A stretch of 62,497 nt of DNA from Ignavibacteriota bacterium. Lineage in GTDB: Bacteria > Bacteroidota > Ignavibacteria > Ignavibacteriales > Melioribacteraceae. The translations under genes and the position numbers were made by a program. Below the pieces are notes generated by a model. The model ran no database searches and was not told the DNA's origin. It was given only the letters and a program-made list of their open reading frames with translations. This document shows positions 24,268 through 49,811 of this stretch, piece after piece (position 1 is the first letter of the stretch; every line of letters begins with the position of its first letter). The stretch is taken from positions 1 to 62,497 of the forward strand of contig JABFGH010000028.1 of NCBI GenBank assembly GCA_013112585.1. Direction: 5' to 3'.

Positions 24268-24429
24268 ATGAAAAAGAATAATAAAGTTCTAAGAGACCCG
24301 GTTTGCGGTAAAAAAATCAATAAGAATAAAGCTTATGCAAAAGAAACATACGGCAAAAAGGAATATTATTTATGCTGTTCGCTGTGCCAATCCACTTTCC
24401 TAAAAGAACCGGAAAAGTTCATCAATTAA
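24268..24429 (+). CDS. Small YHS-domain metal-binding protein
   Basis: 53 residues: a bare YHS domain with DPVCGKKI (9-16) and YYLCCSLCQSTF (33-44), ending in EPEKFIN. YHS domains bind soft metals through their cysteines and occur in CopA ATPases and metal chaperones. An extra Cys gives CCSLC in the second half. The ATG has AAAGGAG and starts two bases after the previous stop, so it belongs to the sigma-54-led operon. Too short for a usual ORF cut-off. Confidence 0.82.
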   Translation: MKKNNKVLRDPVCGKKINKNKAYAKETYGKKEYYLCCSLCQSTFLKEPEKFIN

Positions 24430-24445
24430 GAGTCGGGAGTTAGTA

Positions 24446-25093
24446 ATGCATGAAAGTTATGATTATGGATTGTGGATAATTGTTTTGATAAATGCGGGGA
24501 TATTTTTTGTATTCGCCATATCATTTATACGACCATCAAAAAAAATTGAATGGCGATCGATGGGAATATTTACAGCATTTATAGCTGCACTCTTTACAGA
24601 AATGTATGGTTTCCCACTTACAATTTATTTTTTAGTTTCAATTTTTGGAGATAACATTGGTGTTGTTGATCCGTTTGATCATTTAAATGGCCACTTGTTA
24701 GGAACTTTATTAGGGGCATCTGATATCGTCAAATATTTGATATGCATTATCGGCGGTTTGATTATGGCTGCAGGCGCTATAGTTATTTATGATGGCTGGA
24801 AACTCATTCATAAATCAAATGGAAATTTGGTAACAACCGGAATTTATTCAAAAATTCGTCACCCTCAATATTCTGGTATATTTTTAATTTCTCTCGGCAT
24901 GCTGGTTCAATGGCCAACATTATTAACCCTAATAATGTTTCCGGTATTGTTATTTGCTTACTTAAAATTATCACTTAAAGAAGAAAGAATTGTTTCCAAA
25001 AAATTTATGAAAGAATACAGTATTTATAGAAGCGAGGTGCCTGCATTTATTCCAAAATTTAGAAAACAAATTAATTATAAAGAAGAGGTGTAA
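24446..25093 (+). CDS. Membrane methyltransferase, ICMT/PEMT-like
   Basis: 215 residues with five or six membrane helices. The C-terminal half has the isoprenylcysteine-carboxyl-methyltransferase/phospholipid-methyltransferase signature: TTGIYSKIRHPQYSGIFLIS (about 130-149), then a KEER motif and a YRSEVPAFIP end. Bacterial members methylate lipids or unknown small molecules using SAM. The substrate is unknown. It lies between a YHS gene and a DUF5676-like gene in one operon, 16 bases after the former, with GGGAG ahead of the ATG. Confidence 0.8.
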   Translation: MHESYDYGLWIIVLINAGIFFVFAISFIRPSKKIEWRSMGIFTAFIAALFTEMYGFPLTIYFLVSIFGDNIGVVDPFDHLNGHLLGTLLGASDIVKYLICIIGGLIMAAGAIVIYDGWKLIHKSNGNLVTTGIYSKIRHPQYSGIFLISLGMLVQWPTLLTLIMFPVLLFAYLKLSLKEERIVSKKFMKEYSIYRSEVPAFIPKFRKQINYKEEV

Positions 25094-25094
25094 A

Positions 25095-25664
25095 ATGAAA
25101 AAAGTAGAACCCTACCCCATTGCAAGTGCATTATTTTTCATAGCTCAAATATTTTATATAGTCTGTATCAGTGTAAAGTTAGTGCTTAATAATTTAGGAA
25201 TTGAAGGTTTTTGGCATATGCATAAAGTTTGGGAAATGATACTTCCCGGATTTTCTTCTCATAGTTTATTGGACTTCATTTTGGGTCTGTTAGAGGTCGG
25301 CTTAGGTGCATATGCAATTGGTTATTTAGTGGTGTTGACTTATAATTTTCTAAATAAAAAATCGGTTACAAATAATCAACCCTCACCAAAACCATTTGTT
25401 CTTAGATTCAAAGTATTGTTCCTAACAATATTTACATATTCCGTACTGCTATTTACAATTTGTTTTGTGTATGATTTGATTGTACCAAAGAATTTAAGCA
25501 TGAGCTTTATTTGGTCGTGGGTATTACCGGGTTTTCAAAACCTTAGCCTCAGTAATTATTTAGTTGGCATTTTCGATTTACTAATCTATAGTCTTTATTC
25601 TGCCTCAATTATTACCTGGGTACTCAACTATTTTCAAAAAGTTCAATTTGTAAATGTAAAATAA
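25095..25664 (+). CDS. Duplicated DUF5676-like small membrane protein
   Basis: 189 residues made of two similar halves. Each has a helix, a short loop with W-x(4,6)-LPGF (WEMILPGFSS and WSWVLPGFQN) and a glycine-spaced helix (FILGLLEVGLGAYAIGYLVV; YLVGIFDLLIYSLYSASIIT) ending in an aromatic/Asn-Phe. This is the pattern of the DUF5676 family, short two-helix proteins common in metal-resistance loci. The tandem form is unusual. It starts one base after the methyltransferase stop. Confidence 0.6.
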   Translation: MKKVEPYPIASALFFIAQIFYIVCISVKLVLNNLGIEGFWHMHKVWEMILPGFSSHSLLDFILGLLEVGLGAYAIGYLVVLTYNFLNKKSVTNNQPSPKPFVLRFKVLFLTIFTYSVLLFTICFVYDLIVPKNLSMSFIWSWVLPGFQNLSLSNYLVGIFDLLIYSLYSASIITWVLNYFQKVQFVNVK

Positions 25665-25676
25665 GAGGTGAAACAA

Positions 25677-25937
25677 ATGATAAAATATAACTCGAATAAA
25701 TTTGGAATTACAATAGCCATTTTTTTGATGATTTTTTTTACATATTTATTTATAAAATCTTACATAACAGATGATATTTTAATTATCAATATAATTACGC
25801 CCTTAATACCAATTGTAACAGATATCTCACTATCATCATTGGTATTTGGACTGGTTGGGTCCTTCTTTTGGGGTTATCTACTGGGAGTATCATTTATGTT
25901 TCTTTTTAATTTTTATAATATACGGCTTAACAAATAA
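25677..25937 (+). CDS. DUF5676-like two-helix membrane protein
   Basis: 86 residues from the ATG at 25677 (AGAGGTG ahead of it); a GTG nine bases earlier is less likely. Two hydrophobic helices are separated by a short loop; the second (SSLVFGLVGSFFWGYLLGVSFMFLFNFYN) has the glycine spacing and F-N-x-Y end of the 49545-49811 protein. Function unknown; it sits between the tandem homologue and a YHS gene, so it is part of the same module. Confidence 0.6.
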   Translation: MIKYNSNKFGITIAIFLMIFFTYLFIKSYITDDILIINIITPLIPIVTDISLSSLVFGLVGSFFWGYLLGVSFMFLFNFYNIRLNK

Positions 25938-25939
25938 AA

Positions 25940-26146
25940 ATGGATTCGAAAAAAAGAAAACATATTGACCCTGTATGCTTGATGGAAGTTGAAATTCCGG
26001 AGACAGATGACTTGGATTTAAAATCAGCGACTTATGAAGGAAACAGATATTATTTTTGTTCTCCATTTTGTGCTGCTGCATTTATTAATTCACCAAGTCG
26101 ATTTATTGATAGATTAAAAAAGTTAAATAACAATAAAAACAAATGA
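25940..26146 (+). CDS. YHS-domain metal-binding protein
   Basis: 68 residues. The DPVCLMEVEIPE motif (10-21) is followed by YYFCSPFCAAAF (about 38-49) and a basic tail. The two cysteine sites are those of the YHS family. It starts two bases after the preceding stop, so translation is coupled. Second YHS protein of this operon. Confidence 0.8.
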   Translation: MDSKKRKHIDPVCLMEVEIPETDDLDLKSATYEGNRYYFCSPFCAAAFINSPSRFIDRLKKLNNNKNK

Positions 26147-26152
26147 GGATTT

Positions 26153-26491
26153 ATGCAGTTCAGTTACAAAGATAAGGGTGAATTTTTAAGAGCATTCTTA
26201 ATTCTAATAAGGAAGGATAAAAATATTAACAAGTCAGAAAAGCAAATGACAATGGTAATTGGAAAATATTTTGGATTCGAAAAAAAATTTTGTGAGGATG
26301 CAATAAGTCACCTTTTGGAAAACGAATTTTTATCCGAAAAACCACCTGTGTTTTCATCAAAAGAAATTGCACATTTTTTTGTTAAAGAGGTAACCCATAT
26401 TATGGAACAAATAAAACCTATGAACGATGAAGAAAAGGAATGGTTACTAGAGATTGCAAAGGTAAATAATGTCAATGATATGATTATATAA
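26153..26491 (+). CDS. Hypothetical helical cytoplasmic protein, possibly TerB-like
   Basis: 112 residues, no signal or membrane helix. It appears all-helical, with an acidic/basic pattern (LIRKDKNINKSEKQMTMVIG; MNDEEKEWLLEIAKVNNV) that recalls TerB/DjlA-type domains: a first helix pair followed by a KxE/D-x-E motif. The resemblance is weak and the family is not certain. TGAGGATTT gives a fair ribosome site six bases after the YHS gene, so it closes the operon that begins at 21915. Confidence 0.5.
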   Translation: MQFSYKDKGEFLRAFLILIRKDKNINKSEKQMTMVIGKYFGFEKKFCEDAISHLLENEFLSEKPPVFSSKEIAHFFVKEVTHIMEQIKPMNDEEKEWLLEIAKVNNVNDMII

Positions 26492-26949
26492 ATAACAATA
26501 CTTAAATAGATATATGCAATAAATTGTTATTAATTTCTACGAAATTAATATTAAGAATATTTAGTAAAATTTTAGCTAGGTAAGAGTGCTAAATTAATTC
26601 AGTTCGGTGCTCAATAGAATTTTAAAATATGTACGATTAAATATATGCTCAATTTAGTACAGTTTGCCATGTCTATTCAAATTCTAGTGTTACATTTTCT
26701 AAATGGCAGATATAAAGAGATGAAGTATTAGGAAAATTCAATAAGAGTGTGAAAGTTATTTAATAAATATCGAATTTAAGGTTTGTGAAGAATTAAAATT
26801 TTGATAGTAATTATTCTCATTATAAATTTATTTATTAAGAGAAGTCATTTGCGACCAAATACTAATTTTTAATTCCAGTAAAAAGCCTAAACCTAAACAC
26901 ATTGCTTTTAAAAGAAATTATTTACTATATTGCCCACCATTTTTTAATT
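26492..26949. other. Intergenic region before the second RND operon
   Basis: About 450 AT-rich bases. An imperfect inverted repeat (GTGCTAAATT near 26587, AATTTAGTAC near 26651) is visible. At the right end TTGCTT at about 26902 and TATATTGC at about 26926 look like a Bacteroidota-type -33/-7 promoter and would put the transcript start just ahead of the ATG at 26950. No small gene is convincing. Confidence 0.4.
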
Positions 26950-27381
26950 ATGACTACTTTCAGAAAAAAATATCGGCTGTTTAGTTCAGCAATTACACTC
27001 TTGTTGGTGAACTTTCTATTATTTTCACCTTTTTTTCATCATCATCACAATGAATATTCGGTTGACAAAGTAGAAAAAACATTAATTCATTCACACCTGT
27101 TGAATCATAATTCTGACACACATAATTCTGAAGATAAAAACCATTCTTCGTTTGACAAAGTCAATCACTATCATTTTATTAAATTAAACTCAGTTTTCAG
27201 TATCAATCCTTCCAAAGGATTCAAGATAAACCTCGTGAGTAATTTTTATGCTACTCAATTTTATTTTCAGGATAGTTTCGAAAATGAAGCAAGCCGGTAT
27301 GTAACTTCCAATCCCGAATCTCAGTTTCAATGGGAAAAGTATGTCCATTGCGCCGCAAACGTTTCTCCCCCATTAGCTTAA
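26950..27381 (+). CDS. His-rich exported protein ahead of the czc-like operon
   Basis: 143 residues from the ATG at 26950; the frame is open upstream, but a promoter-like sequence lies in that part. A signal-like helix (about 12-28) is followed by FFHHHHNEYS and a His/Ser/Asn-rich stretch (HSHLLNHNSDTHNSEDKNHS). Such short His-rich secreted proteins often precede heavy-metal RND genes in Bacteroidota and probably bind Zn, Ni or Cu in the periplasm. The end (VHCAANVSPPLA) has a single Cys. The TolC-like gene follows after 49 bases. Confidence 0.6.
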   Translation: MTTFRKKYRLFSSAITLLLVNFLLFSPFFHHHHNEYSVDKVEKTLIHSHLLNHNSDTHNSEDKNHSSFDKVNHYHFIKLNSVFSINPSKGFKINLVSNFYATQFYFQDSFENEASRYVTSNPESQFQWEKYVHCAANVSPPLA

Positions 27382-27430
27382 ACCAAACCAAGTTTTAAAA
27401 AAATTATAATAATCTTCAATAGGAGGTATC

Positions 27431-28654
27431 ATGAGACTATTTCGTCTCTTGGTTTTACTTTTATTTATACCTTGTGTATTTATAATAGCTCAGCAAAAAT
27501 TATCTTTTGATGAAGCCCTAAAGTTAGCTTATCAAAACAACATAGATTTGCAAAAACAATCTGCGAAAATACAATACGCAGATGCTGCATTGGGAGAATC
27601 GGCAAGGCTCCCAAACCCGATATTCACATATACACGCGAAGACTTAAATTCGGGTTCTACTAATTACAAGGAGTGGATTGCATCAGGTTCAATTCCGCTA
27701 AATTTTTTATGGAACCGCTGGAGCAATTTAGAATCAAAAGAAAAATCACTTGAAGCTCAGAAACTTCTTTATAATGCTCTAAAGTTTAAAGTCTCAGCGC
27801 GTGTTCGTGAAAGCTACTTTGCTTTTAATAAATATTCTGATTTGGCCGGCAGATTAAATAATACAATTAACCGTTTAGCCGAGTTAGCAGAGGCTGCAAA
27901 ACACCGTTTGAATGAAGGCGACATTTCTGAGTATGAATTACAGAGAATACTCATTGAAGTGAATAAAATAAAAGTAACAGCTTCACAAATAGAACTTTTA
28001 AAAACCAGATCGGAAAATAGTTTAAAACTTCTTACCGGTTACAGTTCATCTAAAAAGATTGTAACAGAGTCCCTTGAATTAAACACAGATTTAAATCTTT
28101 CCGAAGAACAACTTGTAAATGTTGCACTAAAAAACAGGAATGATCTTAAATCGCTTGAGATGTTAATTGAAAGTGAGAATTCGTTTGTCTCACACAATCA
28201 AATGAAAATAATACCGGATATTAGTTTATCTGCCGGGTATAAAAAACAAACTGACGACCTAAAAGGAACGGTATTCCAAATAGATTTTGAAGTCCCTCTG
28301 TTTAATCGCAATCAGATGGCTATTCAGCAATCGGAAATTGAAGTAAACCTCCTTGAAAAGGAAACGGCATTCCTAATTAATAAAATCAAAACAGAAGTAT
28401 CCGAAGCGTATCAAAATTATGTTGTGAATAAATCATTATACAACGAAAGAAACAATATTCGGATGGCTAATATATTAAACACAGCAGTTTATTCTTATGA
28501 ACAAGGTGAGATAAACTTAGTCGAGTTTATCGATGGCATTAATGCTTTTATCGACGGATCAAAATTAAGCAGTGAATTAGAAATCAATCTTCATAAATAT
28601 TATTCTCAGCTTGAAAAAGCTGTTGGAATTTCTTTAACAAATTTTGAGAAATAA
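27431..28654 (+). CDS. TolC-like outer-membrane channel (CzcC-like)
   Basis: 407 residues with a signal peptide (1-20) and two outer-membrane-efflux repeats. KLSFDEALKLAYQNNIDLQK near the start and YEQGEINLVEFIDGINAF near the end are family hallmarks. AGGAGG is five bases ahead of the ATG. The channel serves the adaptor and pump encoded next in line. Confidence 0.9.
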   Translation: MRLFRLLVLLLFIPCVFIIAQQKLSFDEALKLAYQNNIDLQKQSAKIQYADAALGESARLPNPIFTYTREDLNSGSTNYKEWIASGSIPLNFLWNRWSNLESKEKSLEAQKLLYNALKFKVSARVRESYFAFNKYSDLAGRLNNTINRLAELAEAAKHRLNEGDISEYELQRILIEVNKIKVTASQIELLKTRSENSLKLLTGYSSSKKIVTESLELNTDLNLSEEQLVNVALKNRNDLKSLEMLIESENSFVSHNQMKIIPDISLSAGYKKQTDDLKGTVFQIDFEVPLFNRNQMAIQQSEIEVNLLEKETAFLINKIKTEVSEAYQNYVVNKSLYNERNNIRMANILNTAVYSYEQGEINLVEFIDGINAFIDGSKLSSELEINLHKYYSQLEKAVGISLTNFEK

Positions 28655-28674
28655 TAAGGAGCAAAGCGAATAAA

Positions 28675-30174
28675 ATGGTTAGAACAACATATATTTTAAT
28701 TTTTGCAGTTGCGTTAACTTTCCTCGGTGCCTGTTCACATGAACATGAGCCTGAAGAGGAAGTTCATGAACACGGCGGCACATCAGTAACTCAATATACA
28801 GATTCAACAGAGATATTTATGGAATATCCGGCTCTTGTCGTAAATCAGGATGCAAAGTTTCTTATTCACTTAACTGATTTAAAAAATTTCAAGGCTGTAA
28901 ATCAAGGAATTTTAACAGTTGAGTTAACAAACGGCAGAGGAACAAAATTATTGTTGACTGAAGATAAACCTGTAAGAGACGGAATTTATACCCCGATTAT
29001 AAAATTTGCAGAACCGGGAAATTATACAATGAATATTACTCTCAAAGGAAAACAAGTATCGGATAATATTGTTGTTAACGAAGTAACGGTATATTCGAAC
29101 GAAAATGAAATTCCTCATGAAGAGGAAACTGCTTCATCAAGTATATCTTTCCTCAAAGAACAGCAATGGAAAATTGATTTTGCAAATGAAGCGGTTGTAA
29201 AAAGAAAATTGCAAAAGTCTGTTTTGGCAACCGGTGAAATTAAACCGAAACCGGAGTATTTCTCAAAAGTAGTATCGCCGATAGCCGGTATTGTTTTAAA
29301 TAAAAATAACTCGAATTTAAGATCCATAGGCGCCTTTGTAAAAAAAGGGGGCGTTTTATTAAACATTTCTCCCTCTGCCAATGCAGGTGCAAACATTCAG
29401 AAAATTAAAAGTGATTATCTCCTCGCCAAATCAGATTATGAAAGAGCTAAAAATCTGTTTGAAAAAAAGGCTGTATCACAAAAACGTTTGGATGAAGCAA
29501 AATTTGATTTTGAGACTAAACAGGTAAGTTACAATTCCCTGGCTGAACAAATAAAGATTACCGAAAACGGTTACTCTGTTATTGCACCGATTGATGGATA
29601 CATTGAAATGATAAACTTTAATCTCGGTGACCAGATAAAACCTGGACAAGAATTGTTTACGATAATAAATCCATCAAGATTAGTATTAAAAGCAAATGTT
29701 CCTTCAACTCAAATAGAAGCTGCTGTAAATTCTAAGAACGCCTCTTTTTCAATTGAAGGTCTAAAACGGAAATTTAGAATCAGCGATCTTAATGGTAAAA
29801 AAATATCTGTTGCTGCTGGGCTGGACGTGGTTAATAGAACAATACCGGTATATTTCGAGTTTACAAATCCTCAAAACCAGATAAAGATCGGGATGTATGC
29901 GGAAGTTTATATACATGAAGGTGAAGGTGAAGAATATATTGCAATTCCGGAAAGCGCGATCATTGACGAAGATGGTCTTCATACCGCTTACGTTCAAGTT
30001 GAAGGAGAAGCGTTTGAGAAAAGAATCTTAAAAACCGGAATAACCGATGGAAATTATGTACAGATACTTGAAGGTTTGAATGAAGGTGAAAGAGTAGTTA
30101 CTCAAGGTGCATATCAGGTAAGACTTGCAGCACTTTCGCCAGAATCAGCAATCGGTCAAGGTCACGTTCATTAA
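28675..30174 (+). CDS. RND periplasmic adaptor lipoprotein (CzcB-like)
   Basis: 499 residues. A lipoprotein signal ends in LGACSHEHE, with Cys20 as lipid anchor, followed by a His-rich start of the mature protein (HEHEPEEEVHEHGG). A 100-residue beta domain precedes the HlyD-type barrel-sandwich, hairpin and beta-barrel (about 175-490); the protein ends in a short His tail (GHVH). Such His-rich adaptors belong to divalent-cation (Co/Zn/Cd) or mixed-metal pumps. It sits 17 bases ahead of the pump gene. Confidence 0.9.
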   Translation: MVRTTYILIFAVALTFLGACSHEHEPEEEVHEHGGTSVTQYTDSTEIFMEYPALVVNQDAKFLIHLTDLKNFKAVNQGILTVELTNGRGTKLLLTEDKPVRDGIYTPIIKFAEPGNYTMNITLKGKQVSDNIVVNEVTVYSNENEIPHEEETASSSISFLKEQQWKIDFANEAVVKRKLQKSVLATGEIKPKPEYFSKVVSPIAGIVLNKNNSNLRSIGAFVKKGGVLLNISPSANAGANIQKIKSDYLLAKSDYERAKNLFEKKAVSQKRLDEAKFDFETKQVSYNSLAEQIKITENGYSVIAPIDGYIEMINFNLGDQIKPGQELFTIINPSRLVLKANVPSTQIEAAVNSKNASFSIEGLKRKFRISDLNGKKISVAAGLDVVNRTIPVYFEFTNPQNQIKIGMYAEVYIHEGEGEEYIAIPESAIIDEDGLHTAYVQVEGEAFEKRILKTGITDGNYVQILEGLNEGERVVTQGAYQVRLAALSPESAIGQGHVH

Positions 30175-30191
30175 AAGTTTAAGGAGAAAAA

Positions 30192-33287: not shown

Positions 33288-33289
33288 AT

Positions 33290-33640
33290 ATGATTTACTA
33301 CATAATTAAAGTTGCAATTTCTGCTGCATTAATTGTGGCTGTATCAGAATTATCAAAAAAGAGTTCTTTAATTGGAGGCATCCTTGCCTCCATTCCCCTT
33401 GTCTCAGTATTGGCAATGATTTGGTTATACGTTGAGACAAAAGATGTTGCAAAGATTTCACAATTTTCAACAAGTGTATTTTGGATGGTGATTCCTTCAC
33501 TTGGACTATTTATTATTCTCCCGCTCTTGTTAAGAATGAAAATAAATTTTTATCTTGCTTTATCTTTGGCATCTGGAGTAACAGTACTGCTTTATTATTT
33601 AGTGATAACTCTCTTAGCAAAATTTGGGATTAGAATTTAA
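33290..33640 (+). CDS. DUF3147-like small membrane protein
   Basis: 116 residues, four membrane helices. The motif ELSKKSSLIGGILASIPLVSVLAMIWLY matches the DUF3147 family of small inner-membrane proteins that often follow heavy-metal RND genes. The function is unknown. Its ATG is two bases after the pump stop, so it is co-translated. Confidence 0.75.
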   Translation: MIYYIIKVAISAALIVAVSELSKKSSLIGGILASIPLVSVLAMIWLYVETKDVAKISQFSTSVFWMVIPSLGLFIILPLLLRMKINFYLALSLASGVTVLLYYLVITLLAKFGIRI

Positions 33641-33653
33641 AAAAGGATACAAA

Positions 33654-34511: not shown

Positions 34512-36221
34512 ATGAAGAGACGCGATTTTATTATTAAATCATCATTAGCTGGTATGGCTCTAGTAGCCTTGCCAAAAATATATTCTCAGGATAGCAAAAT
34601 CACCAAATTGCAAGTTGGTAATCCATTGCGATTTCCACCGGAGCTACAGGAGGGTGAATCACTTAAATTTAACTCTGCTAATGTTGAAGTCTGGCCAGGC
34701 ACAACTACTCAGGTATTGGCATTAAATAATTCTTATCCTGGACCTACAATAAGGGTGCAGAAGGGTGATGATTTTTCTGTATTGTTTGAGAATCAGTTCA
34801 CTGAAGAAGCAACAATCCATTGGCATGGTTTACTTGTACCGGAATTGATGGACGGGCAGCCAAAGGATGCAGTGCAAGCTGGCTCTAACTACACTTATTC
34901 ATTCCCAATTATTCAAAGAGCAGGAACATATTTTTATCATTCTCATGCACATCATCTAACCGCAAAACATGTTTACAAAGGATATGCCGGATTTTTTATT
35001 ATTGAAGATGATGATGAACTTCAGTATGGTCTGCCAACCGGGGCATATGATATTCCGCTGCTAATTCAGGATAGACATTCAGTATATCAACCTCAATTTA
35101 ATTATGCCCCTAATATGATGGATAGGATGTTGGGATATCTTGGTGATATACCTCTTGTTAATGGAACACCTGATGCTTTCTTCGATGTTCAAAAAACACT
35201 ATATCGATTCCGAATAGTTAATGGTTCCAATGCAAGGGTTTACAATTTTGGGTTCTCAGATAATTCTCAATTCTGGATTATTGGAACAGATGGCGGATTA
35301 AAGGATGAAGCTGTTCCCGTTTCAAATGTATTTTTATCACCTGGCGAAAGAATAGAAATCCTCTACGATTTTTCCCCCATCGATATAGGTAATTCAGTTT
35401 CACTTCAATCGCAGGCATTTAGTGGAATCGGAAATCAAGGAACACTTATGGATATTCTCCGATTTGATATTGCCGGTGATTCATCTTCCGGCGGTGTTGT
35501 TCCTCAAAACCTATTACCAATTGATTATTACGATATTAATGATAAAACTGGAACTCGTACTTTTACTTTAAGTCAAGCAATGATGGGAACAGGTATGCAC
35601 CGTATTAATGGATTAACCTATGACATGAACAGGATAGATGAAGTGATCCCCTTCAATGAACTTGAAGAATGGAAATTTATTAATAGTACTAATAATTATC
35701 ACCCTATGCATGTTCATGGAGTTTTATTTCAGATTTATTCAAGAAATGGGAATACCACACTAGCTTCAAATGATAAAGGTTGGAAAGACACGGTGCTTGT
35801 TAAACCTAATGAAACAGTTCAAGCATTGGTAAAGTTTATAGACTACTCCGGAACTTATTTACTTCATTGCCATAACCTTGAACACGAGGATGATGGAATG
35901 ATGCTAAACATAAAGATAGATACTCCAACAAATATTGAGGATGAAAATACTTCCCCGAACAATTTTGAGCTTTATCAGAATTACCCAAACCCTTTTAATC
36001 CCTCTACAACTATAAAATTTAAATTGACAAATGCAGGTTTTGCGACATTGACTATTTTTAGTTTATTAGGGACTAAAATCGAGACTATTTTTGCCGGAAA
36101 TAAAAGTAGTGGGTCTCATTCAATTACTTACACTAATAAATCCCTTGCATCAGGAACTTATATTTATGAATTAAAAGTGAATGGTTATGCTCTTAGAAAA
36201 AAAATGATACTTCTCAAATAG
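34512..36221 (+). CDS. Multicopper oxidase, Tat-exported and T9SS-tagged
   Basis: 569 residues. A twin-arginine signal (KRRDFIIKSSLAGMALVAL) starts the protein. Copper motifs of a three-domain oxidase follow: HWHG (103-106), HSHAHH, HPMHVHG and HCHNLEHEDDGMM. Cys with the flanking His and Met gives a complete type 1 site. After residue 485 comes a type IX secretion sorting domain (YQNYPNPFNPSTTI ... KKMILLK). CueO/CopA-type oxidases turn Cu(I) into less toxic Cu(II). The tag predicts surface display or release, so the enzyme should work outside the cell. Tat plus T9SS is an odd pair, because T9SS substrates normally use Sec. Confidence 0.93.
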   Translation: MKRRDFIIKSSLAGMALVALPKIYSQDSKITKLQVGNPLRFPPELQEGESLKFNSANVEVWPGTTTQVLALNNSYPGPTIRVQKGDDFSVLFENQFTEEATIHWHGLLVPELMDGQPKDAVQAGSNYTYSFPIIQRAGTYFYHSHAHHLTAKHVYKGYAGFFIIEDDDELQYGLPTGAYDIPLLIQDRHSVYQPQFNYAPNMMDRMLGYLGDIPLVNGTPDAFFDVQKTLYRFRIVNGSNARVYNFGFSDNSQFWIIGTDGGLKDEAVPVSNVFLSPGERIEILYDFSPIDIGNSVSLQSQAFSGIGNQGTLMDILRFDIAGDSSSGGVVPQNLLPIDYYDINDKTGTRTFTLSQAMMGTGMHRINGLTYDMNRIDEVIPFNELEEWKFINSTNNYHPMHVHGVLFQIYSRNGNTTLASNDKGWKDTVLVKPNETVQALVKFIDYSGTYLLHCHNLEHEDDGMMLNIKIDTPTNIEDENTSPNNFELYQNYPNPFNPSTTIKFKLTNAGFATLTIFSLLGTKIETIFAGNKSSGSHSITYTNKSLASGTYIYELKVNGYALRKKMILLK

Positions 36222-42176: not shown

Positions 42177-42189
42177 TTTTCCCTCAATT

Positions 42190-42825: not shown

Positions 42826-42843
42826 ATCATATTCCTAATTATT

Positions 42844-43248: not shown

Positions 43249-43272
43249 AACATTAACCTTTATTTTACTTAT

Positions 43273-43308
43273 TACAAATATAATATCTGTAGTATGGTAC
43301 GGAGTCAA
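43273..43308 (-). promoter_or_regulatory. MerR-type promoter/operator of the mer operon
   Basis: Read leftwards, TTGACTCCGTAC begins at 43308, as in the Tn501-type operator; TTATAT/TATATT follows after a long 19-20-base spacer. A dyad CCGTA-N6-TACAG lies in the spacer. Long spacing and a central dyad are the hallmark of MerR control. The promoter is 55-60 bases ahead of merR. Confidence 0.8.
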
Positions 43309-43448
43309 GCAAAAAAGTAACCCCCAAATTCTTACAAAAATAAGTTCTATTATTTTATTCAGTTTTAAAAAAATTAAATCGATTAAGCTTTTTATAATAA
43401 CTACATTCTGAATGGTGCGATTATGGACTCTATTGAACGAATTATTAG

Positions 43449-43465
43449 GGCATAGTATTTGTTTT
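43449..43465 (+). promoter_or_regulatory. Weak sigma-54-like site
   Basis: GGCATAGTATTTGTTTT: GG then ten bases then GT instead of GC. It is otherwise like the three good sites and lies 31 bases ahead of the small ORF at 43493, so it may serve the small-protein module starting there. The missing C makes it uncertain. Confidence 0.3.
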
Positions 43466-43492
43466 TATAGTTAAAAAATAGTTAGAGTAAAA

Positions 43493-43612
43493 ATGATAGC
43501 TTTAATTTTGCATAGCTTATTACTACCAATAGCATTAAGGATTATGGAATACTTAATTATTTCAATGGTGGTATTAGCACTATCGATGATCATTATTCTC
43601 TCCATTTTTTAG
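43493..43612 (+). CDS. 39-residue hydrophobic peptide
   Basis: ATG at 43493, stop TAG at 43610-43612. Nearly all residues are hydrophobic (MIALILHSLLLPIALRIMEY, then a 19-residue helix ending LSIF). The ribosome site (TTAGAG) is moderate. It heads the cluster of small membrane and metal proteins at 43.5-44.7 kb. Not recognised. Confidence 0.4.
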   Translation: MIALILHSLLLPIALRIMEYLIISMVVLALSMIIILSIF

Positions 43613-43674
43613 TTTTAATAATTTTGGGAATTATAATAAATCGTTGTTATATAATTTCGAACACGGAGGATCAA

Positions 43675-43821
43675 ATGTCAGAGACAATATTTTCAATCGG
43701 ATTTGTTATTGCATTATTTGTATTGCTTGGTTTTATAATAATGAAGTGGAATAAAAAAATATCACAAAAAAATGTGGCGGGATTAACTGTTAAAGACCCG
43801 GATAAATTTGGCTGCCATTAA
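43675..43821 (+). CDS. Small single-pass membrane protein
   Basis: 48 residues from the ATG at 43675, which has the strong site GGAGGA; the frame is open upstream. One helix (about 4-22, IFSIGFVIALFVLLGFIIM) is followed by WNKKISQKN and a short tail with TVKDPDKFGCH. The tail resembles the DP-x-C-x-x start of a YHS motif without the second half. Member of the small-protein module. Confidence 0.65.
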   Translation: MSETIFSIGFVIALFVLLGFIIMKWNKKISQKNVAGLTVKDPDKFGCH

Positions 43822-43899
43822 AAATCGAAATGTAATTGAAAATGATTTTTCTCAGTTAAATATTTTAATTCTAATGCGAACTAATTTGGAGGATTAAAA

Positions 43900-44079
43900 A
43901 TGTCTGACGAAAAAATATTCTTTTTAATCTTCGTTGTATTAATGTTTTTTATGCATCGAGGACATGGTCATACCAAGGGCGGTTGTGGTGGACATTCTCA
44001 TAACAGAAATTCTAAAATGGACGAACAGAATAAAGATAAAAGTAGTAGTACTTATGCTAGGTATTCTCATCATCATTAA
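43900..44079 (+). CDS. His/Gly-rich single-pass membrane protein (DUF2933-like)
   Basis: 59 residues from the ATG at 43900 with TTGGAGGA ahead. One membrane helix (about 5-19) leads to HRGHGHTKGGCGGHSH and a polar tail ending SHHH. The layout (helix, then a short His-rich metal-binding loop) is that of the DUF2933-type proteins found in metal-resistance loci, and closely parallels 49349-49510. A metal-buffering or chaperone role is inferred. Confidence 0.65.
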   Translation: MSDEKIFFLIFVVLMFFMHRGHGHTKGGCGGHSHNRNSKMDEQNKDKSSSTYARYSHHH

Positions 44080-44107
44080 AATAATTTAAATACTTCAAGT
44101 GAAGAAA

Positions 44108-44368
44108 ATGATAACTTCCGCGAAAGTAACTTTAATTATATGCCTTCTAACAGCAATTGTATGGAGTAGTATTTATTTTCTGCAATTCCTTTTGCATGGT
44201 ATGGATAACATGTTTAATAATGATTTCATTTTCTTTTTTGCTAGAATTTTTAGTTTTGATATTTCAACAGTTTATGAGGGAATTGCATTTTCTTTTATAG
44301 ACGGCACCTTAATTGGTTTTGGGATATGGAAATTAATCAGAATTTTAGGATGTGTTTTTATAGAATGA
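44108..44368 (+). CDS. DUF5676-like two-helix membrane protein
   Basis: 86 residues from the ATG at 44108; a GTG three codons earlier is possible. Helix 1 (about 4-24) and helix 2 (GIAFSFIDGTLIGFGIWKLI, about 60-79) frame a loop with aromatic residues. The glycine-spaced second helix with an Asp matches the DUF5676 pattern of 49545-49811. The role is unknown, but such proteins recur with YHS genes three times in this window. Confidence 0.55.
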   Translation: MITSAKVTLIICLLTAIVWSSIYFLQFLLHGMDNMFNNDFIFFFARIFSFDISTVYEGIAFSFIDGTLIGFGIWKLIRILGCVFIE

Positions 44369-44545
44369 AAGTATCATCTGTAGCCTTTAATTTTATCCAA
44401 TTAAAATTCTTAAAACAATTCAAGTTTCTTGAATCTGTCCAATGAAATTCTATCCTTAATAGGTGTTAATCACCATTTTATTCTGGTATAATAAATGAAT
44501 AATAACAAATAATTACTTTTAAAATAACTACACTTGGAGATAAAA

Positions 44546-44737
44546 ATGGAACTTGACCCGGTTTGCAAAATGGAATTAACAGATATTAAAAAATGCGATG
44601 AATCAATCGTAGATGGTAAAAAGTATTATTTTTGCTCAACATTTTGCAGAGTATTATTTGAAAATAACACAGAATATTATTTATCGAAAGAAAACAAATA
44701 TGGATTGACGAAACAATTAAAAGGTGTATCACATTGA
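44546..44737 (+). CDS. YHS-domain metal-binding protein
   Basis: 63 residues from the ATG at 44546 (TTGGAG ahead). MELDPVCKMEL (1-11) and YYFCSTFCRVLF (about 28-39) are the two halves of the YHS domain with the metal-binding cysteines. A polar tail follows. It closes the 43.5-44.7 kb module and precedes a methyltransferase gene by ten bases. Confidence 0.8.
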   Translation: MELDPVCKMELTDIKKCDESIVDGKKYYFCSTFCRVLFENNTEYYLSKENKYGLTKQLKGVSH

Positions 44738-44747
44738 ATAAAACGCG

Positions 44748-45371
44748 ATGACACTAAAATTGAATCAGAGTAAAACTATTCAAAAAAGATACAACCGTTA
44801 CTCAAAGTATTACGACTTTCTTGAGTCTCCTATGGAGTTGTTATTTTCAAAATGGAAAAAAGAATTAATTAACTATGCCTCCTGTAATGTATTGGAGGCG
44901 GGAGTGGGCACCGGTAAAAACATTAATCTTTATCCACCTTATATTAATATTACTGCTATTGATTTTAGCGAGGGGATGGTTAAAAAAGCTAAAAGAAAAT
45001 TTTACACAAAGAAAAATATTACATTCCATAATATTGATATTCAGCAAACAGAGTTTGAGGATAATTCATTTGACACAATTTTAGCTTCGTATGTTTTTTG
45101 TTCTGTACCCGATTTTGTTCTTGGTTTAAGAGAGATGAGAAGAATTTGTAAAGATGGCGGGAAAATAATTCTGTTAGAACATACGAGAAATGATAAAGTG
45201 TTTTTAGGAAAATTGGTGGACCTACTAAATCCATTATTTATAAAGCTATTCGGTTATAATATTAATCGAAGGACTTATGAAAATATATCTAATGCCAGGT
45301 TTAGAAATATTGATCAAAAAATATTATGGCTGGCTATTTTCAAGCTATTTATTATAACAAATCACAAATAA
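44748..45371 (+). CDS. Class I SAM-dependent methyltransferase (PEMT/UbiE-like)
   Basis: 207 residues. SAM motif VLEAGVGTGKN (about 46-56), acidic strand ITAIDFS, then NSFDTILASYVFCSVPD and LLEHTRND, the signature of bacterial phospholipid N-methyltransferase/UbiE-like enzymes. It is a close parallel of 61625-62248 (both have YDFLE, VGxGTGKN and FCSVP). The substrate is not known: phosphatidylethanolamine, or a metalloid or thiol. No clear ribosome site, which suggests coupling to the YHS gene ending ten bases earlier. Confidence 0.85.
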   Translation: MTLKLNQSKTIQKRYNRYSKYYDFLESPMELLFSKWKKELINYASCNVLEAGVGTGKNINLYPPYINITAIDFSEGMVKKAKRKFYTKKNITFHNIDIQQTEFEDNSFDTILASYVFCSVPDFVLGLREMRRICKDGGKIILLEHTRNDKVFLGKLVDLLNPLFIKLFGYNINRRTYENISNARFRNIDQKILWLAIFKLFIITNHK

Positions 45372-45398
45372 CTATTTTAATATTTGGAACTACAACGA

Positions 45399-46469
45399 AT
45401 GCTGCCTACATCAAAAGATGAATTAGTTTATTTACTAGGGTTAAAAGATTCACAATCCAGAAACGAACTAATTCAAAAAGCATATCAGCAAAAAGTCAAC
45501 ACTCTCGGCAATACAGTTTATTTGAGAGGACTAATTGAATTTAGTAATATCTGTTATAAAGATTGTTACTATTGTGGAATTAGAAAATCAAATATAAAAG
45601 TAAACAGATATTTAATGACCATTGATGAAATATTAAATTCGGCAAAATGGGCATTTGATAAAGGTTACGGATCTATTGTGCTGCAGTGTGGCGAAAGAAA
45701 AGACAAAAATTTTATAAATTTTATAGAATCAATTTTAAATAGTATTTCAATTCAAACATCAAATGAGTTTAGAGTTACATTATCGTGCGGTGAACAAACG
45801 AAAGAGACTTATAAGAGATGGTTTGATGCAGGGGCTGCCAGATATTTATTAAGAATAGAATCCTCAAATAAAAGGATATATGAAAGCCTTCACCCGCAAA
45901 ATCATAGCTACAATAATAGAGTTGCCTGCTTAAACTTTTTGAAAGAAATAGGTTATCAAGTTGGAACAGGAATAATGATAGGTCTCCCAAATCAAATGCT
46001 GGAAGATTTAGCGAGTGATATAATTTTCTTTAATTCCATCGAAGCTGATATGATCGGGATGGGACCATATATACCTCATTCCGATACACCGATTTTCCCA
46101 GCCGAAATTCAAATTGTTAGGAATAAAATTGAGTTATATAACCTCTCACTAAAAATGATTGCGTTAACAAGAATTACTATTCCAAAAATTAATATTGCTG
46201 CAGCAACTGCTTTTCAAGCTTTGTATCCTTTTGGAAGAGAACAGGCAATACTCTCTGGTGCTAATGTTTTTATGCCCAACATTTCAGAAGCAAAGTACAG
46301 GAATAATTATCGACTCTATGAAAATAAACCATGCGTTGGTGAAAATACTTTTGAATGTTTTGAATGTGTAGAAAATCGAATCAAAGGAATTGGGGAATCA
46401 ATTGCTTATTTTGAAAACGGCGATTCCCGATTGTTTTATGAAAGAGTCAATAAATCAATTTCTTCATAG
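45399..46469 (+). CDS. Radical SAM protein, HydE-like
   Basis: 356 residues from the ATG at 45399. The radical SAM cluster motif is NICYKDCYYCGIR (C52, C56, C59), followed by GYGSIVLQCGE, LRIESSNKRIYESLHP and GIMIGLPNQ, which fit the HydE/BioB-type barrel. HydE helps to build the [FeFe]-hydrogenase H-cluster, but HydF, HydG and the hydrogenase are not in this window. HydE-like proteins also occur without hydrogenase with unknown roles. Cysteines near the end (NTFECFECVENR) may hold a second cluster. Confidence 0.8.
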   Translation: MLPTSKDELVYLLGLKDSQSRNELIQKAYQQKVNTLGNTVYLRGLIEFSNICYKDCYYCGIRKSNIKVNRYLMTIDEILNSAKWAFDKGYGSIVLQCGERKDKNFINFIESILNSISIQTSNEFRVTLSCGEQTKETYKRWFDAGAARYLLRIESSNKRIYESLHPQNHSYNNRVACLNFLKEIGYQVGTGIMIGLPNQMLEDLASDIIFFNSIEADMIGMGPYIPHSDTPIFPAEIQIVRNKIELYNLSLKMIALTRITIPKINIAAATAFQALYPFGREQAILSGANVFMPNISEAKYRNNYRLYENKPCVGENTFECFECVENRIKGIGESIAYFENGDSRLFYERVNKSISS

Positions 46470-46683
46470 TATGATTTCGACATTATTAAGTTCAACTCAA
46501 TTTTATAAAAATAAGATAGAATTGGTAATTAAACCTTAAGGTAATGTTCAATTTCCCAAACCGATAATTGTAATAAACAATAATGTTCCTCGAAATTTTA
46601 TTAAAAAATTAAAATCATATTAAATATCTTAAAATAATTTTCATCACAAAATATCAAATTTTGACAAAATACGAACTATTGTT

Positions 46684-46701
46684 TTGGCATCAGTCTTGCA
46701 T
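46684..46701 (+). promoter_or_regulatory. Sigma-54 (-24/-12) promoter of the second small-protein module
   Basis: TTGGCATCAGTCTTGCAT: GG at 46686-46687, ten bases, GC at 46698-46699, with TGGCA and TTGCA at the two halves. It is 36 bases ahead of the ATG at 46737. Best match to the consensus together with 55153. Confidence 0.8.
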
Positions 46702-46736
46702 TTCAAACATTGATTTATAAAAATATGGAGGCTGAA

Positions 46737-46955
46737 ATGTTAATTATAACGTTAATTACCCTGATTATTTTATCCGCAGCAATGTTTCTCACAGCAAAAG
46801 GAATTGAGAGGAAGGAAAAGAATTCTATTGAATGCGGGTTGAGCAAATTTTGCAGCATAGAAAAATTAAAAGAGTGCTCACCGGTTAATAAACCATCAAC
46901 GAATTATTTGGCTTTAACAGGTAAGGCAAATGAACTAATTGATCTTGGTAAATAA
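46737..46955 (+). CDS. Small single-pass membrane protein with four cysteines
   Basis: 72 residues from the ATG at 46737 (site GGAGG). A helix (about 1-19) is followed by a soluble tail with IECGLSKFCSIEKLKECSP. Three cysteines spaced like a metal-binding knot suggest metal binding. Not recognised. First gene after a sigma-54 promoter. Confidence 0.6.
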   Translation: MLIITLITLIILSAAMFLTAKGIERKEKNSIECGLSKFCSIEKLKECSPVNKPSTNYLALTGKANELIDLGK

Positions 46956-47048
46956 TAGGATGATAAAAGTTGCTGCAATGGTTATCGCAAATCAAATAAT
47001 TATTACAAAATGCTGCTGCATTAAATACAAAATTATAAGAGGTTAACA

Positions 47049-47225
47049 ATGGAACACGATATAGTTTGTGGAATGGAAATTAAGAATACTCTATCTGCGC
47101 CCTTGATCATTTACAAGGGTAAAACATATTATTTCTGTACGGACTTATGTAAAATTCAGTTCGAGCAGGAACCGGAAAAATATATACAAAAAGGTGACTC
47201 TGAGCAAGACGAACATCAGGATTAA
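47049..47225 (+). CDS. YHS-domain metal-binding protein
   Basis: 58 residues from the ATG at 47049 with AGAGGT ahead. MEHDIVCGMEI and YYFCTDLCKIQF are the paired YHS halves; the first has IVCGM where most have PVCGM. The tail is acidic with His (EQDEHQD). It is missing from usual ORF lists because of its size. Confidence 0.78.
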   Translation: MEHDIVCGMEIKNTLSAPLIIYKGKTYYFCTDLCKIQFEQEPEKYIQKGDSEQDEHQD

Positions 47226-47291
47226 TATTTAGATCATTCATTATGCTTGCCGGGAAACTGAACATCAATCAATTAAAACTTGGCAAATGAG

Positions 47292-47525
47292 ATGGAATGC
47301 GATCCGATATGCGGTATGAGATTTAACAACATTTTGGATGCACCACGGAGCATATATAAAGGCAGCATGGTTTATTTCTGCTGTGAAAATTGTAAAAGTA
47401 TCTTTGATACAAATCCTGAAACTTATATTTCCGGTATGCATTACGAATTAAATTTTACCAATATAAATCCCGATGAATGTGATTGTGATAAAAATAACTT
47501 AATTGTGCACGGTTACAGGTTATAA
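47292..47525 (+). CDS. YHS-domain metal-binding protein with Cys-rich tail
   Basis: 77 residues from the ATG at 47292; a TTG four codons earlier is also open. MECDPICGMRF and VYFCCENCKSIF form the YHS domain; the latter has an extra Cys. The tail has DECDCDK. Third YHS gene in this module if 44546 is counted. The ribosome site is weak, so it may be coupled to the gene before. Confidence 0.75.
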   Translation: MECDPICGMRFNNILDAPRSIYKGSMVYFCCENCKSIFDTNPETYISGMHYELNFTNINPDECDCDKNNLIVHGYRL

Positions 47526-47591
47526 TATTTTGAATTTTCATTCAATTAAAACTTTTATAAAAAATTATTATTCATAAAAAAAGGACTTAAA

Positions 47592-48680
47592 ATGTTACCA
47601 GAGTGGGCACCGAATATACACCCGATAATAGTACACTTCCCCATTGCATTATTATTCATAGCAGTTTTTTTTCACTCTCTTAGTTTATTTTTCAAGCAGC
47701 AAGATTGGTTTGCAAAAACAGCATTAAGTCTTTACATAATTGGTGCGCTAGCATCAATAGCTGCTTTTGTAAGTGGACGTGCAGCGGGTGATGCGCTTGA
47801 TCTGCCGCGGAATGTTATTAGTACACTTACTGATCATGCGGATTGGGCAGAATATACAGTGTGGTACTTTGGAATATTCACAATTGTGTATTTAGTTTAT
47901 TCAGTATTTGAAGAAAAATATTTCAAAAATTTAGCTGCGTATATAAAGCCCTTGTTATTTGTAATTGGATTGGGAGGACTATTTTTCGTTTACCAAACCG
48001 GAGACAATGGAGCAAAAATGGTTTTTGGTTACGGACTTGGCACTGGGAATATTAAAGAAGAAGTAGAGAACAAAAATGATGAGACATTAAATACGGAAAA
48101 TAATGTAGATAATGTAACCTCAACAATAAGTAGTAAAGAAAATGGCTCTTGGAAGTTTTATACTGCGGAAGGTTCAGTCCAAACATTAAAAAATGATTTT
48201 ACATGGATAGACGGCAACAGATCAATAATTGGAATCGAGTCAGAGTCAGATGATATTGAGTCATACATCAAGTTAAGCCCGAATAACAATTTCGCCACAC
48301 TTACTTATGGGGGAAAACTAAATAACATTCAAGTGTCTTCAAGAGTAAACTTCGATTCATTCAACGGAATTTTAATAATCCTCCATCATTTTATTGATAA
48401 TAATAATTATGATTTTGTTTCATTTCAAAATGATAGTATTGAAATGGGTAGAATTGCCGCCGGAGAAACTGAGAGTTTTGAACGAGGTAATTTTAATAAT
48501 ACCGACTGGTTGAATATTAAAATAATTAGTTCAGGCAGCCATTTTAGAACAATGATAAATGGTAAAATGATTTTACACGGACATGGTGATAAAGTGAACC
48601 CCGGAACAGTGGGCGTCAGATTTAATGGAACCGGCAGCTTGTTATTATCGAGTTTAGAAATTGAAGTTATTGAAGAATAA
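47592..48680 (+). CDS. DUF2231 membrane domain fused to a lectin-like/DUF1080 domain
   Basis: 362 residues. Residues 1-140 have four membrane helices with PNIHPIIVHFPIALLFIAVF (His residues facing the membrane), the DUF2231 signature. From about 190 a soluble beta domain follows (GSWKFYTAEG ... GTVGVRFNGTGSLLLSSLEI) with the 3-keto-disaccharide-hydrolase/concanavalin-like pattern. DUF2231 proteins are linked to heme or copper membranes in some genomes. The fusion is unusual. AAGGAC is ahead of the ATG. Confidence 0.7.
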   Translation: MLPEWAPNIHPIIVHFPIALLFIAVFFHSLSLFFKQQDWFAKTALSLYIIGALASIAAFVSGRAAGDALDLPRNVISTLTDHADWAEYTVWYFGIFTIVYLVYSVFEEKYFKNLAAYIKPLLFVIGLGGLFFVYQTGDNGAKMVFGYGLGTGNIKEEVENKNDETLNTENNVDNVTSTISSKENGSWKFYTAEGSVQTLKNDFTWIDGNRSIIGIESESDDIESYIKLSPNNNFATLTYGGKLNNIQVSSRVNFDSFNGILIILHHFIDNNNYDFVSFQNDSIEMGRIAAGETESFERGNFNNTDWLNIKIISSGSHFRTMINGKMILHGHGDKVNPGTVGVRFNGTGSLLLSSLEIEVIEE

Positions 48681-48843
48681 TGATAACGCAAAGTCCGTTA
48701 ATTGCTTTTACCATGAATGCCATTATTGGCTATTCTAAAATATTTCGAGGATTCCTTAATTAAGAAAATTTTCATTAAAACTGAGTATCAATTTTAAACA
48801 TTAATAAAATCTTAAGAAATAAATATTAAAAAGGAGAATTAAT

Positions 48844-49230
48844 ATGTCTTACTATTTCACAAAAACAATAAGCACAACTTTTGATAATGCAATTAAAAAA
48901 GTAACTGACGAATTGAAAGAAGAAGGATTCGGAATTTTAACCGAGATAGACGTTAAGGAAACATTAAAAAATAAACTGAACGTTGATTTTAAGAAGTATA
49001 GAATCTTAGGCGCTTGCAATCCCCCATTTGCATACAAAGCACTGCAAGCGGAAGATAGAATTGGTGCAATGCTTCCGTGCAACGTAATTGTAATCGAACA
49101 AGCAGAAAACAAAATCGAGGTTTCGGCTGTTGATCCTGTTGCTTCAATGCAGGCTGTGGATAACGAATCATTGAATGATATTGCAAATGAGGTTCAATCT
49201 AAATTGAAAAAAGTTATTGACAGTCTATAA
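48844..49230 (+). CDS. DUF302 family protein
   Basis: 128 residues, no signal. The family core is clear: ALKEEGFGILTEIDV-like start (here ELKEEGFGILTEIDVKETLK), then YRILGACNPPFAYKAL and MLPCNVIVIE. DUF302 proteins are small, cytoplasmic, of unknown function, and often sit in metal or sulfur clusters; the conserved Cys residues (GACNPP, LPCN) could bind a ligand. AAGGAG lies ahead of the ATG. Confidence 0.88.
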   Translation: MSYYFTKTISTTFDNAIKKVTDELKEEGFGILTEIDVKETLKNKLNVDFKKYRILGACNPPFAYKALQAEDRIGAMLPCNVIVIEQAENKIEVSAVDPVASMQAVDNESLNDIANEVQSKLKKVIDSL

Positions 49231-49245
49231 CTTCTAGATACATAT

Positions 49246-49269
49246 AGAAATTTAAATATTTAAATTTCT
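49246..49269. repeat. Perfect 24-base AT-only palindrome
   Basis: The 12-base arm AGAAATTTAAAT is followed at once by its exact reverse complement, so there is no loop. It lies 16 bases after the DUF302 stop. It could be a weak terminator stem or a binding site for an AT-rich-DNA protein. Confidence 0.5.
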
Positions 49270-49348
49270 TCTAACTCACATGCTATTAAATCAATTGAAT
49301 AAGTGAATTTTTGTTTTGATAATCTTGGCATATTTAGTAGAGGATAAA

Positions 49349-49510
49349 ATGGAATGGTTAGCTGAAAATTGGTTCTGGGTTTTAGTACTTATACTGTTTG
49401 TAGTTATGCACATATTTGGTCATGGCGGTCACTGGAAACATAGTGATGATAAAAACGAAGATAAAAACCGAAAAAATCATAATCCCGATTCCGGTCATGG
49501 ACACCATTAA
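49349..49510 (+). CDS. His-rich single-pass membrane protein (DUF2933-like)
   Basis: 53 residues from the ATG at 49349 (AGAGGAT ahead); the open frame begins earlier. A helix (WFWVLVLILFVVMHIFGHGG) leads to a charged stretch and ends in GHGHH. It parallels 43900-44079 in length, topology and composition. It is followed at once by a DUF5676 gene. Metal binding is inferred. Confidence 0.65.
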   Translation: MEWLAENWFWVLVLILFVVMHIFGHGGHWKHSDDKNEDKNRKNHNPDSGHGHH

Positions 49511-49544
49511 TTTTTCTAATCGTAATTTTAGAAAGAGATTTAAT

Positions 49545-49811
49545 ATGTTAAATATTAAAATAGTAACGTGGTCGATTGGGCTTTTTACTGCTGTTAGTTT
49601 TACCGTTTGTGTTATTTATGGTCTAATAACACCGGAAAGCATTCACATGCATACATTTTTGGAAACTGTCCTGCCGGCTTTCAAATGGTTAACTTGGTGG
49701 GGTTTTATACTTGGGCTTATAGAGAGTTTTTTGTTTGGCGTTTATGCTGGATTGGTTTTTGTTCCTATATATAATTTCTTTTATAAAAGATGGGGCTTTA
49801 CAAAAAATTAA
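49545..49811 (+). CDS. DUF5676 family membrane protein
   Basis: 88 residues from the ATG at 49545. Two helices; the second, LPAFKWLTWWGFILGLIESFLFGVYAGLVFVPIYNFF (split here as LPAFKWLTWWGFILG and the rest), carries the family's glycine spacing and the YNFF end. This is the clearest DUF5676 member of the window. It ends the sigma-54-headed module that begins at 46737. Function unknown. Confidence 0.7.
   Translation: MLNIKIVTWSIGLFTAVSFTVCVIYGLITPESIHMHTFLETVLPAFKWLTWWGFILGLIESFLFGVYAGLVFVPIYNFFYKRWGFTKN

Follow-up and report, generated by a model that had tools for sequence, protein, structure and literature searches.

Three operons of small YHS, DUF2933 and DUF5676 proteins near a CopA copper exporter of an Ignavibacteriota bacterium: candidate copper accessories

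Analysis of contig JABFGH010000028.1 of an Ignavibacteriota bacterium (Melioribacteraceae; assembly GCA_013112585.1; the whole stretch of 62,497 nucleotides is called the window) revealed three operons of small proteins, A, B and C, in which stand-alone YHS proteins are encoded together with short membrane proteins related to or resembling the DUF2933 and DUF5676 families. On the basis of gene context and conserved ligands, the products of these operons are probably Cu(I)-binding accessories, some cytosolic and some in the membrane, that serve the copper-export machinery (CopA) of the same island. Much of the gene set recurs near copper genes in many bacteria, and it is most likely a little-studied copper-resistance accessory, perhaps used under low oxygen. 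An original prediction, made by a model from the letters alone, had described one module repeated three times and forming a compact metal chaperone/membrane complex. Context and conserved ligands favour the metal-handling part of that proposal. The repetition had to be abandoned, as no duplication is apparent: each of the two DUF5676 proteins of operon A is 24% identical to that of operon C, and the YHS proteins are 26-38% identical to the first of them (24268; proteins are designated by their first position). A, B and C are instead three operons with separate histories.

The window encodes (i) a CopA protein of YHS-HMA-HMA-P1B ATPase architecture with a CPC motif (55794..58538, +; Pfam and motif), identified as a Cu+-exporting P1B-1 ATPase by its HMA domains and the CPC in its sixth transmembrane helix (TM6), (ii) a cupredoxin-like protein directly after CopA (58550..58927, +; Pfam 7.9e-18), and (iii) five stand-alone YHS proteins, two in operon A (24268..24429, 6.5e-11; 25940..26146, 1.5e-8), one in operon B (44546..44737, 3e-8) and two in operon C (47049..47225, 2.6e-15; 47280..47525, 3.1e-10), all on the + strand and all above the Pfam cut-off (PF04945, 30.3 bits; range 2.6e-15 to 3e-8). 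An aspartate and three cysteines are invariant in the alignment of these five proteins with the YHS domain of CopA, in agreement with the conserved cysteine sites noted originally. Six of the seven YHS matches in the genome lie within the window. In a sequence search of solved structures, YHS matched three phenol hydroxylase chains (1.7e-5) and, weakly, one further entry. Among 94 P-type ATPase open reading frames (ORFs) from the named, phylum, plasmid and control stretches defined below and from the window, some of them near-copies or one place fetched twice, the metal motif is CPC in 34, CPH in 23, CPD in 20 and SPC in 2, and the 19 that bear a YHS domain are all of the CPC type. The CPD ATPases occur in L102, L103, L121 and 17 other loci, several directly after a DUF2933-DUF5676 pair; this motif has been reported in three rhizobial Cu-ATPases (PMC5552934).

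The membrane proteins also carry conserved residues. The DUF5676 protein of operon C (49545..49811, +; Pfam 2.6e-15, 57.5 bits, cut-off of PF18926 27.6 bits) has two transmembrane segments (2-TM), and its structure model (predicted local distance difference test, pLDDT, 89) contains helices 4-28, 36-42 and 51-83. In 79 sequences of the family (window included, 74 distinct), Cys22 is present in 79/79, His34 in 74/79 and Met35 in 76/79. The gene ahead of it encodes a single-pass His-rich protein of the DUF2933 family (49349..49510, +; Pfam 4.9e-7, 30.2 bits, above the 21-bit cut-off of PF11666). His 22, 26 and 29 of this family are kept in 94-96% of 68 filtered ORFs and the two window proteins; the 68 are those of 100 ORFs that passed a start-motif filter (32 were dropped), and the conservation of the start is therefore by construction. 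The second window protein is a His/Gly-rich single-pass protein of operon B (43900..44079, +), a probable distant relative of DUF2933 with a Pfam value of 0.036 and 14.6 bits, under the cut-off; it reaches 29 bits against a DUF2933 profile made without window sequences, a score that may partly reflect composition since 43900 and DUF2933 are both His/Gly-rich. In operon A, a protein with two DUF5676 units (25095..25664, +; Pfam 5.3e-6 over two stretches) lies just above the cut-off with 27.7 bits, and tandem DUF5676 ORFs were found in other loci too. It is followed by a divergent DUF5676-like protein (25668..25937, +; Pfam 0.0023) that remains under the cut-off with 19.2 bits and has similar proteins at the equivalent position in L091, L092 and L093. 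A DUF5676 tree built on 90 columns, in which 17 of the 71 inner branches are starred, places Ignavibacteriota rows nearest to the window and mixes some phyla; this is no proof of transfer.

These families recur together elsewhere, as was found in a preset check of co-occurrence. Own profiles, seeded from the window, plasmid and earlier loci, were searched against the ORFs of 80 named loci (the best 80 of 285 DUF5676 loci, L091-L170), 32 stretches from genomes of the phylum, 19 stretches serving as controls and 7 loci on plasmids (L designates loci and G relatives or phylum genomes, G000 being the window's own genome). The named set holds identical DUF5676 ORFs within L104/L106, within L122/L123/L124 and within L156/L157, and L091, L092, L096 and L168 correspond to contigs also counted in the phylum set. 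Among the phylum stretches, L068, whose gene contains a stop, yielded no DUF5676 ORF. DUF2933 is located within 2 kb of DUF5676 in 73/80 named loci and within 10 kb in 74/80, and the two genes are on the same strand and at most 400 bp apart in 68/80 (overlaps of over-extended ORFs included), an adjacency that spans record titles of about ten phyla. YHS is present within 10 kb in 49/80 loci (as a stand-alone ORF in 45/80), a P-type ATPase in 46/80 and HMA in 40/80. The second check, on whether the neighbours are random with respect to metal genes, did not refute the original proposal either: an ATPase with a copper-type motif is found in 39/80 named loci (CPC in 22, CPD in 19, CPH in 2) and a CopA-type ATPase in 1/19 control stretches, in which DUF2933, YHS, ICMT and DUF5676 are found in 0/19, these controls having been drawn from DUF5676-bearing phylum genomes and not from the 80 named genomes. 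In the 32 phylum stretches, an ATPase is encoded within 10 kb in 25, RND proteins in 14, multicopper oxidases in 13, DUF302 in 10, DUF2933 in 8 and YHS in 6.

At the genome level, DUF5676 is present in 29/395 genomes of the phylum and in 3 of 38 relatives (the window's genome included). DUF2933 is present in 7/395, six with a DUF5676 match within 2 kb and the seventh gene interrupted by stops; the Pfam DUF2933 model overlooks some own-profile matches (G009, G344). The two families are thus rare, yet adjacent. One contig of G027 encodes the kinase, the regulator, CopA, YHS, DUF2933, DUF5676 and a relative of 44099, and Ignavibacteria loci contain counterparts of modules A and C. DUF5676 also occurs on 64 of 72,556 plasmid records, of which nine were inspected; those of Polaromonas, Halomonas, Roseibium, Croceicoccus, Indioceanicola and Alteromonas carry clear copper genes or a heavy-metal ATPase. 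The gene order is YHS-DUF5676-ICMT-SHOCT-CopA-DUF2933-ICMT in Halomonas and MerR-CopA-plastocyanin-'metal ion permease'-DUF5676 (annotated as hypothetical)-ICMT in Alteromonas. The Methylophaga plasmid has an HMA protein and ICMT only, the R. etli plasmid a copper-binding protein and a DUF411 protein, and the Paracoccus plasmid DUF2933-ICMT about 6 kb from DUF5676 in a stretch without ATPase. A tblastn search of plasmids with DUF2933 gave no match, perhaps owing to low-complexity masking. Within 6 kb of DUF5676 in the named loci, the ORF clusters as read include phosphoketolase (14 loci), glycogen phosphorylase (8, one Pfam-checked), type II GAPDH (7), PPK2 (7) and NhaA (6).

Furthermore, promoter-like sites for sigma-54, which is encoded in the genome, precede operon A (21874..21888, +, one mismatch), operon C (46685..46699, +, one mismatch) and the CopA operon (55153..55167, +, perfect), ending 26, 37 and 42 bp ahead of the presumed first genes, respectively; the sites of A and C had been predicted originally, and the perfect one had not been listed. 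When GG and GC are kept invariant and no more than one mismatch is tolerated, four sites are present in the window against 1.18 per shuffle (at least four in 5/300 shuffles), one of the four being intragenic (50762). A perfect site arises in 25/300 shuffles. Sites in two of the three promoter stretches arise in 0/300, but this test was chosen post hoc, once the sites had been seen. The statistical support for these sites is modest. Among 13 other loci scanned for the sigma-54 forms, L095 has a site of form A 62 bp ahead of its module A YHS gene and one of form C 445 bp ahead of DUF2933, L093 has a candidate 251 bp ahead of a YHS gene, no site was found in L092, L096 and L098, and the single site of L091 is not ahead of A or C. 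The G027 contig has a perfect site about 600 bp upstream of copA and a one-mismatch site upstream of the kinase. Divergent from module A, the window encodes a membrane histidine kinase (19589..21703, -; HAMP, HisKA and HATPase by Pfam, with a PAS match slightly under the cut-off; 52% identical protein in G027) and an NtrC-family response regulator (18221..19570, -; receiver, sigma-54 activator AAA+ and Fis helix-turn-helix (HTH) by Pfam; 64% identical protein in G027).

Several observations weigh against a role of the whole set in copper export. Complete 10-kb flanks are available in 39/80 named loci only, and there DUF2933 is found in 37 and ICMT in 21, but a P-type ATPase in only 28 and YHS in only 26. 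The counted ATPases include 15/94 in which a metal motif was not found. At the genome level, YHS is common (105/395 phylum genomes) and unspecific. In G007 and G023, which lack DUF5676, YHS is found clustered with an ORF of about 900 amino acids that itself bears YHS. Nor is the set obligate, since type II DUF5676 (FFNSLLHGLD; among L040-L062), represented by 21 rows of the phylum set, has CopA within 3 kb in 16 and DUF302 in 10, with DUF2933 and YHS absent nearby. Sorting DUF5676 by regular expressions left most type I rows unassigned, which has no bearing on the per-locus counts. Numerous islands also carry non-metal genes, e.g. phosphoketolase. When up to two mismatches are allowed, the window contains the sigma-54 pattern no more often than expected by chance (32 matches where 31.5 are expected and, for a second form, 45 where 44.9 are), and no site with at most one mismatch lies directly ahead of modules A or C in G027. 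A Foldseek search with the DUF5676 model found no solved relative (best E 6.8), and a sequence search of solved structures gave nothing better than 0.2. Finally, the argument on topology is weak, lysines and arginines of DUF5676 averaging 1.04 in the part preceding helix 1, 1.01 within the loop and 2.73 at the C-terminus.

In the mechanism that we infer, including the identity of the metal, its binding, the membrane topology, the direction of transfer and the regulation of operons A-C and of the CopA operon, the YHS proteins, with their Asp and three Cys, would be cytosolic copper chaperones or sensors that exchange Cu(I) with CopA at its YHS/HMA domains. DUF2933 would be a single-pass membrane protein whose His-rich tail buffers copper at the membrane, and DUF5676, its 2-TM partner, could pass or sense Cu(I) via the Cys of helix 1 and the His-Met pair of the loop. 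The NtrC-type two-component pair may co-activate A, C and the CopA operon through sigma-54. A more specific version, in which DUF2933 and DUF5676 form a Cu(I) membrane relay fed by stand-alone YHS chaperones and acting with CPC, CPH and the little-studied CPD ATPases, mainly under low oxygen, is put forward tentatively. The YHS-CopA fusions and three single ORFs (L125, L127, L135) joining a DUF2933-like segment, recognized by our own profile only, to a YHS lacking cysteines are hints of a physical complex; in two of these three tested with Pfam, YHS was confirmed and DUF2933 was not. An apparent DUF2933-DUF5676 fusion in L112 was discounted, as it appears frameshifted or over-extended.

A different role in copper handling under low oxygen, either protection against Cu(I) or provision of high-affinity oxidases or denitrification enzymes with copper, would make the set part of a microoxic survival island and not of ordinary resistance. 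In Bradyrhizobium, bsl7992-bll7991-bll7990 (DUF2933-ICMT-hypothetical) is listed as FixK2-dependent; bsl7992 has a value of -23.0 when the fixK2 deletion is compared with the wild type, and its box is placed at -59 (PMC9104804). FNR-type boxes, one mismatch at most being allowed, number 88 in the 80 named loci, whereas 20 mononucleotide shuffles, which are a weak control, gave 27 on average and never more than 36. Perfect boxes lie just ahead of the DUF2933-DUF5676 pair in four Marinobacter loci, and neighbours taken for phosphoketolase, PPK2 and glycogen phosphorylase point to energy stress. Together, the FixK2 table, the boxes and these neighbours suggest a microoxic use in Pseudomonadota. 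However, a box within 350 bp upstream was found for only 6/92 DUF2933 genes (2.4 expected; four of the six near-identical Marinobacter), 6/92 DUF5676 (2.4), 4/98 YHS (2.5), 1/40 ICMT (1.0) and 0/54 CopA (1.3), and the candidate promoters of the window are sigma-54-like. Because the upstream enrichment is slight and owes much to Marinobacter loci that are nearly identical, this explanation stays a rival, and a rather doubtful one.

Modification of membrane lipids or quinones by the ICMT-like, SpeE-like and class I methyltransferase proteins, the YHS and His-rich proteins merely supplying or sensing metal, would account for ICMT within 10 kb in 35/80 named loci, the methyltransferase family in 34/80 and SpeE-like genes in 9/80. 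It is nonetheless improbable, these genes being less constant than DUF2933 (74/80) and the closest described cluster coming from a copper-resistance study (PMC8478169). The two RND efflux sets of the window, its mercury-type genes (our reading) and the restriction of DUF5676 to 3/38 relatives would suit an assemblage of heterogeneous metal-resistance genes gathered by transfer and not cooperating. Such an assemblage is the least probable of the explanations, since the adjacency of DUF2933 and DUF5676 is conserved, with their order retained in 68/80 loci, and the G027 contig unites genes of all three operons. Accessories of copper export thus remain the preferred interpretation of the three operons.

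The remaining genes of the operons are as follows. Operon A presumably begins with a SpeE-like membrane protein (21915..24266, +; weak spermidine-synthase matches below the cut-off); SpeE-like genes occur near the module A genes in L091, L092, L093, L095 and L096, where they are located downstream of them. The two YHS proteins originally assigned to this operon were recovered, and its three DUF5676-like units are obtained if the sub-cut-off protein 25668 is accepted; an ICMT/PEMT-like membrane methyltransferase (24446..25093, +; Pfam 1.9e-7), which is not a DUF5676 protein, had been overlooked. In operon B, the YHS protein stands, and the supposed DUF5676-like protein (44099..44368, +) was ruled out as a member (no Pfam match, hhalign probability 0.6%, own profiles E 0.06-0.08); it is a 2-TM protein of a separate family without Pfam model, with the motif LHGM..MFN.DF and homologues in L091, L095, L098 and L162. 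Proteins like 43900 are encoded directly before the 44099 relative in L091 and near it in L098, and none was seen in the printed stretch of L095. Module B is followed by a class I methyltransferase (44748..45371, +; Pfam), which also comes after the 44099-family genes of L091 and L095. Next to operon B, a HydE [FeFe]-hydrogenase maturase (7.9e-104) is encoded at 45384-46469; HydF, HydG and HydA were not seen among the window ORFs, part of which were covered by the family scan, and the six Fe_hyd_lg_C matches of the genome are all on other contigs. The content predicted for operon C was confirmed by Pfam in full, and includes a DUF2231 membrane protein (47592..48680, +), whose match (2.1e-12) covers residues 8-151 of 362 and leaves an additional part at the C-terminus, and a DUF302 protein (48844..49230, +; 7.9e-26). 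Elsewhere in the window are encoded a FAD-dependent oxidoreductase that carries an NCxCxWCxHG-type motif in its C-terminal part (53624-54829; 75% identical protein on the G027 contig with copA), which resembles by eye a cluster found near DUF5676 in 9/80 named loci, a P-II-like protein (9378-9710) downstream of a CusA-type RND pump, and a multicopper-oxidase-like protein (34512-36221), whose C-terminal end resembles a secretion/sorting tail.

No paper naming DUF5676 and no function for the whole gene set were found in a literature search that covered few papers of subscription journals. The literature on DUF2933 or the YHS domain includes PMC8478169, PMC12582456, PMC4626032 and PMC9104804, and where DUF2933 is named in the text available, it appears only as an annotation. 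The original statement that no function is described for this combination holds for DUF5676, but clusters of copA, cupredoxin, DUF2933 and ICMT have been published in a copper-resistance study (PMC8478169). Models of how bacteria export copper could gain a membrane step from the small DUF2933-DUF5676 gene pair, which lies beside copper pumps.

Among known systems, the FixK2-dependent operon of Bradyrhizobium, with DUF2933 followed by ICMT, is similar by gene names and differs by its FixK2 control (PMC9104804). In the Mycobacterium phlei adenylyl cyclase, copper activates the YHS-bearing enzyme and YHS is a probable copper sensor; its YHS has the same set of Asp and three Cys and a measured copper response, but is fused to the cyclase, whereas the YHS proteins of the window are stand-alone (PMC4626032). 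The Sulfolobus-type copT/copM/copA system likewise has a small TRASH/YHS-type protein beside CopA, CopM containing a TRASH or related domain; it differs by its archaeal regulator, and DUF2933 and DUF5676 are unmentioned in the available part of that article (PMC5328820). The closest counterpart is the cluster of copA, cupredoxin, DUF2933/hypothetical, ICMT and merR genes in Alteromonas and other marine Gammaproteobacteria (PMC8478169), in which, as in the window, CopA, cupredoxin, DUF2933 and ICMT-like genes are found together, the marine clusters being carried on islands and plasmids; the window differs in adding YHS and DUF5676, in having several operons, and in encoding an NtrC-type pair instead of MerR.

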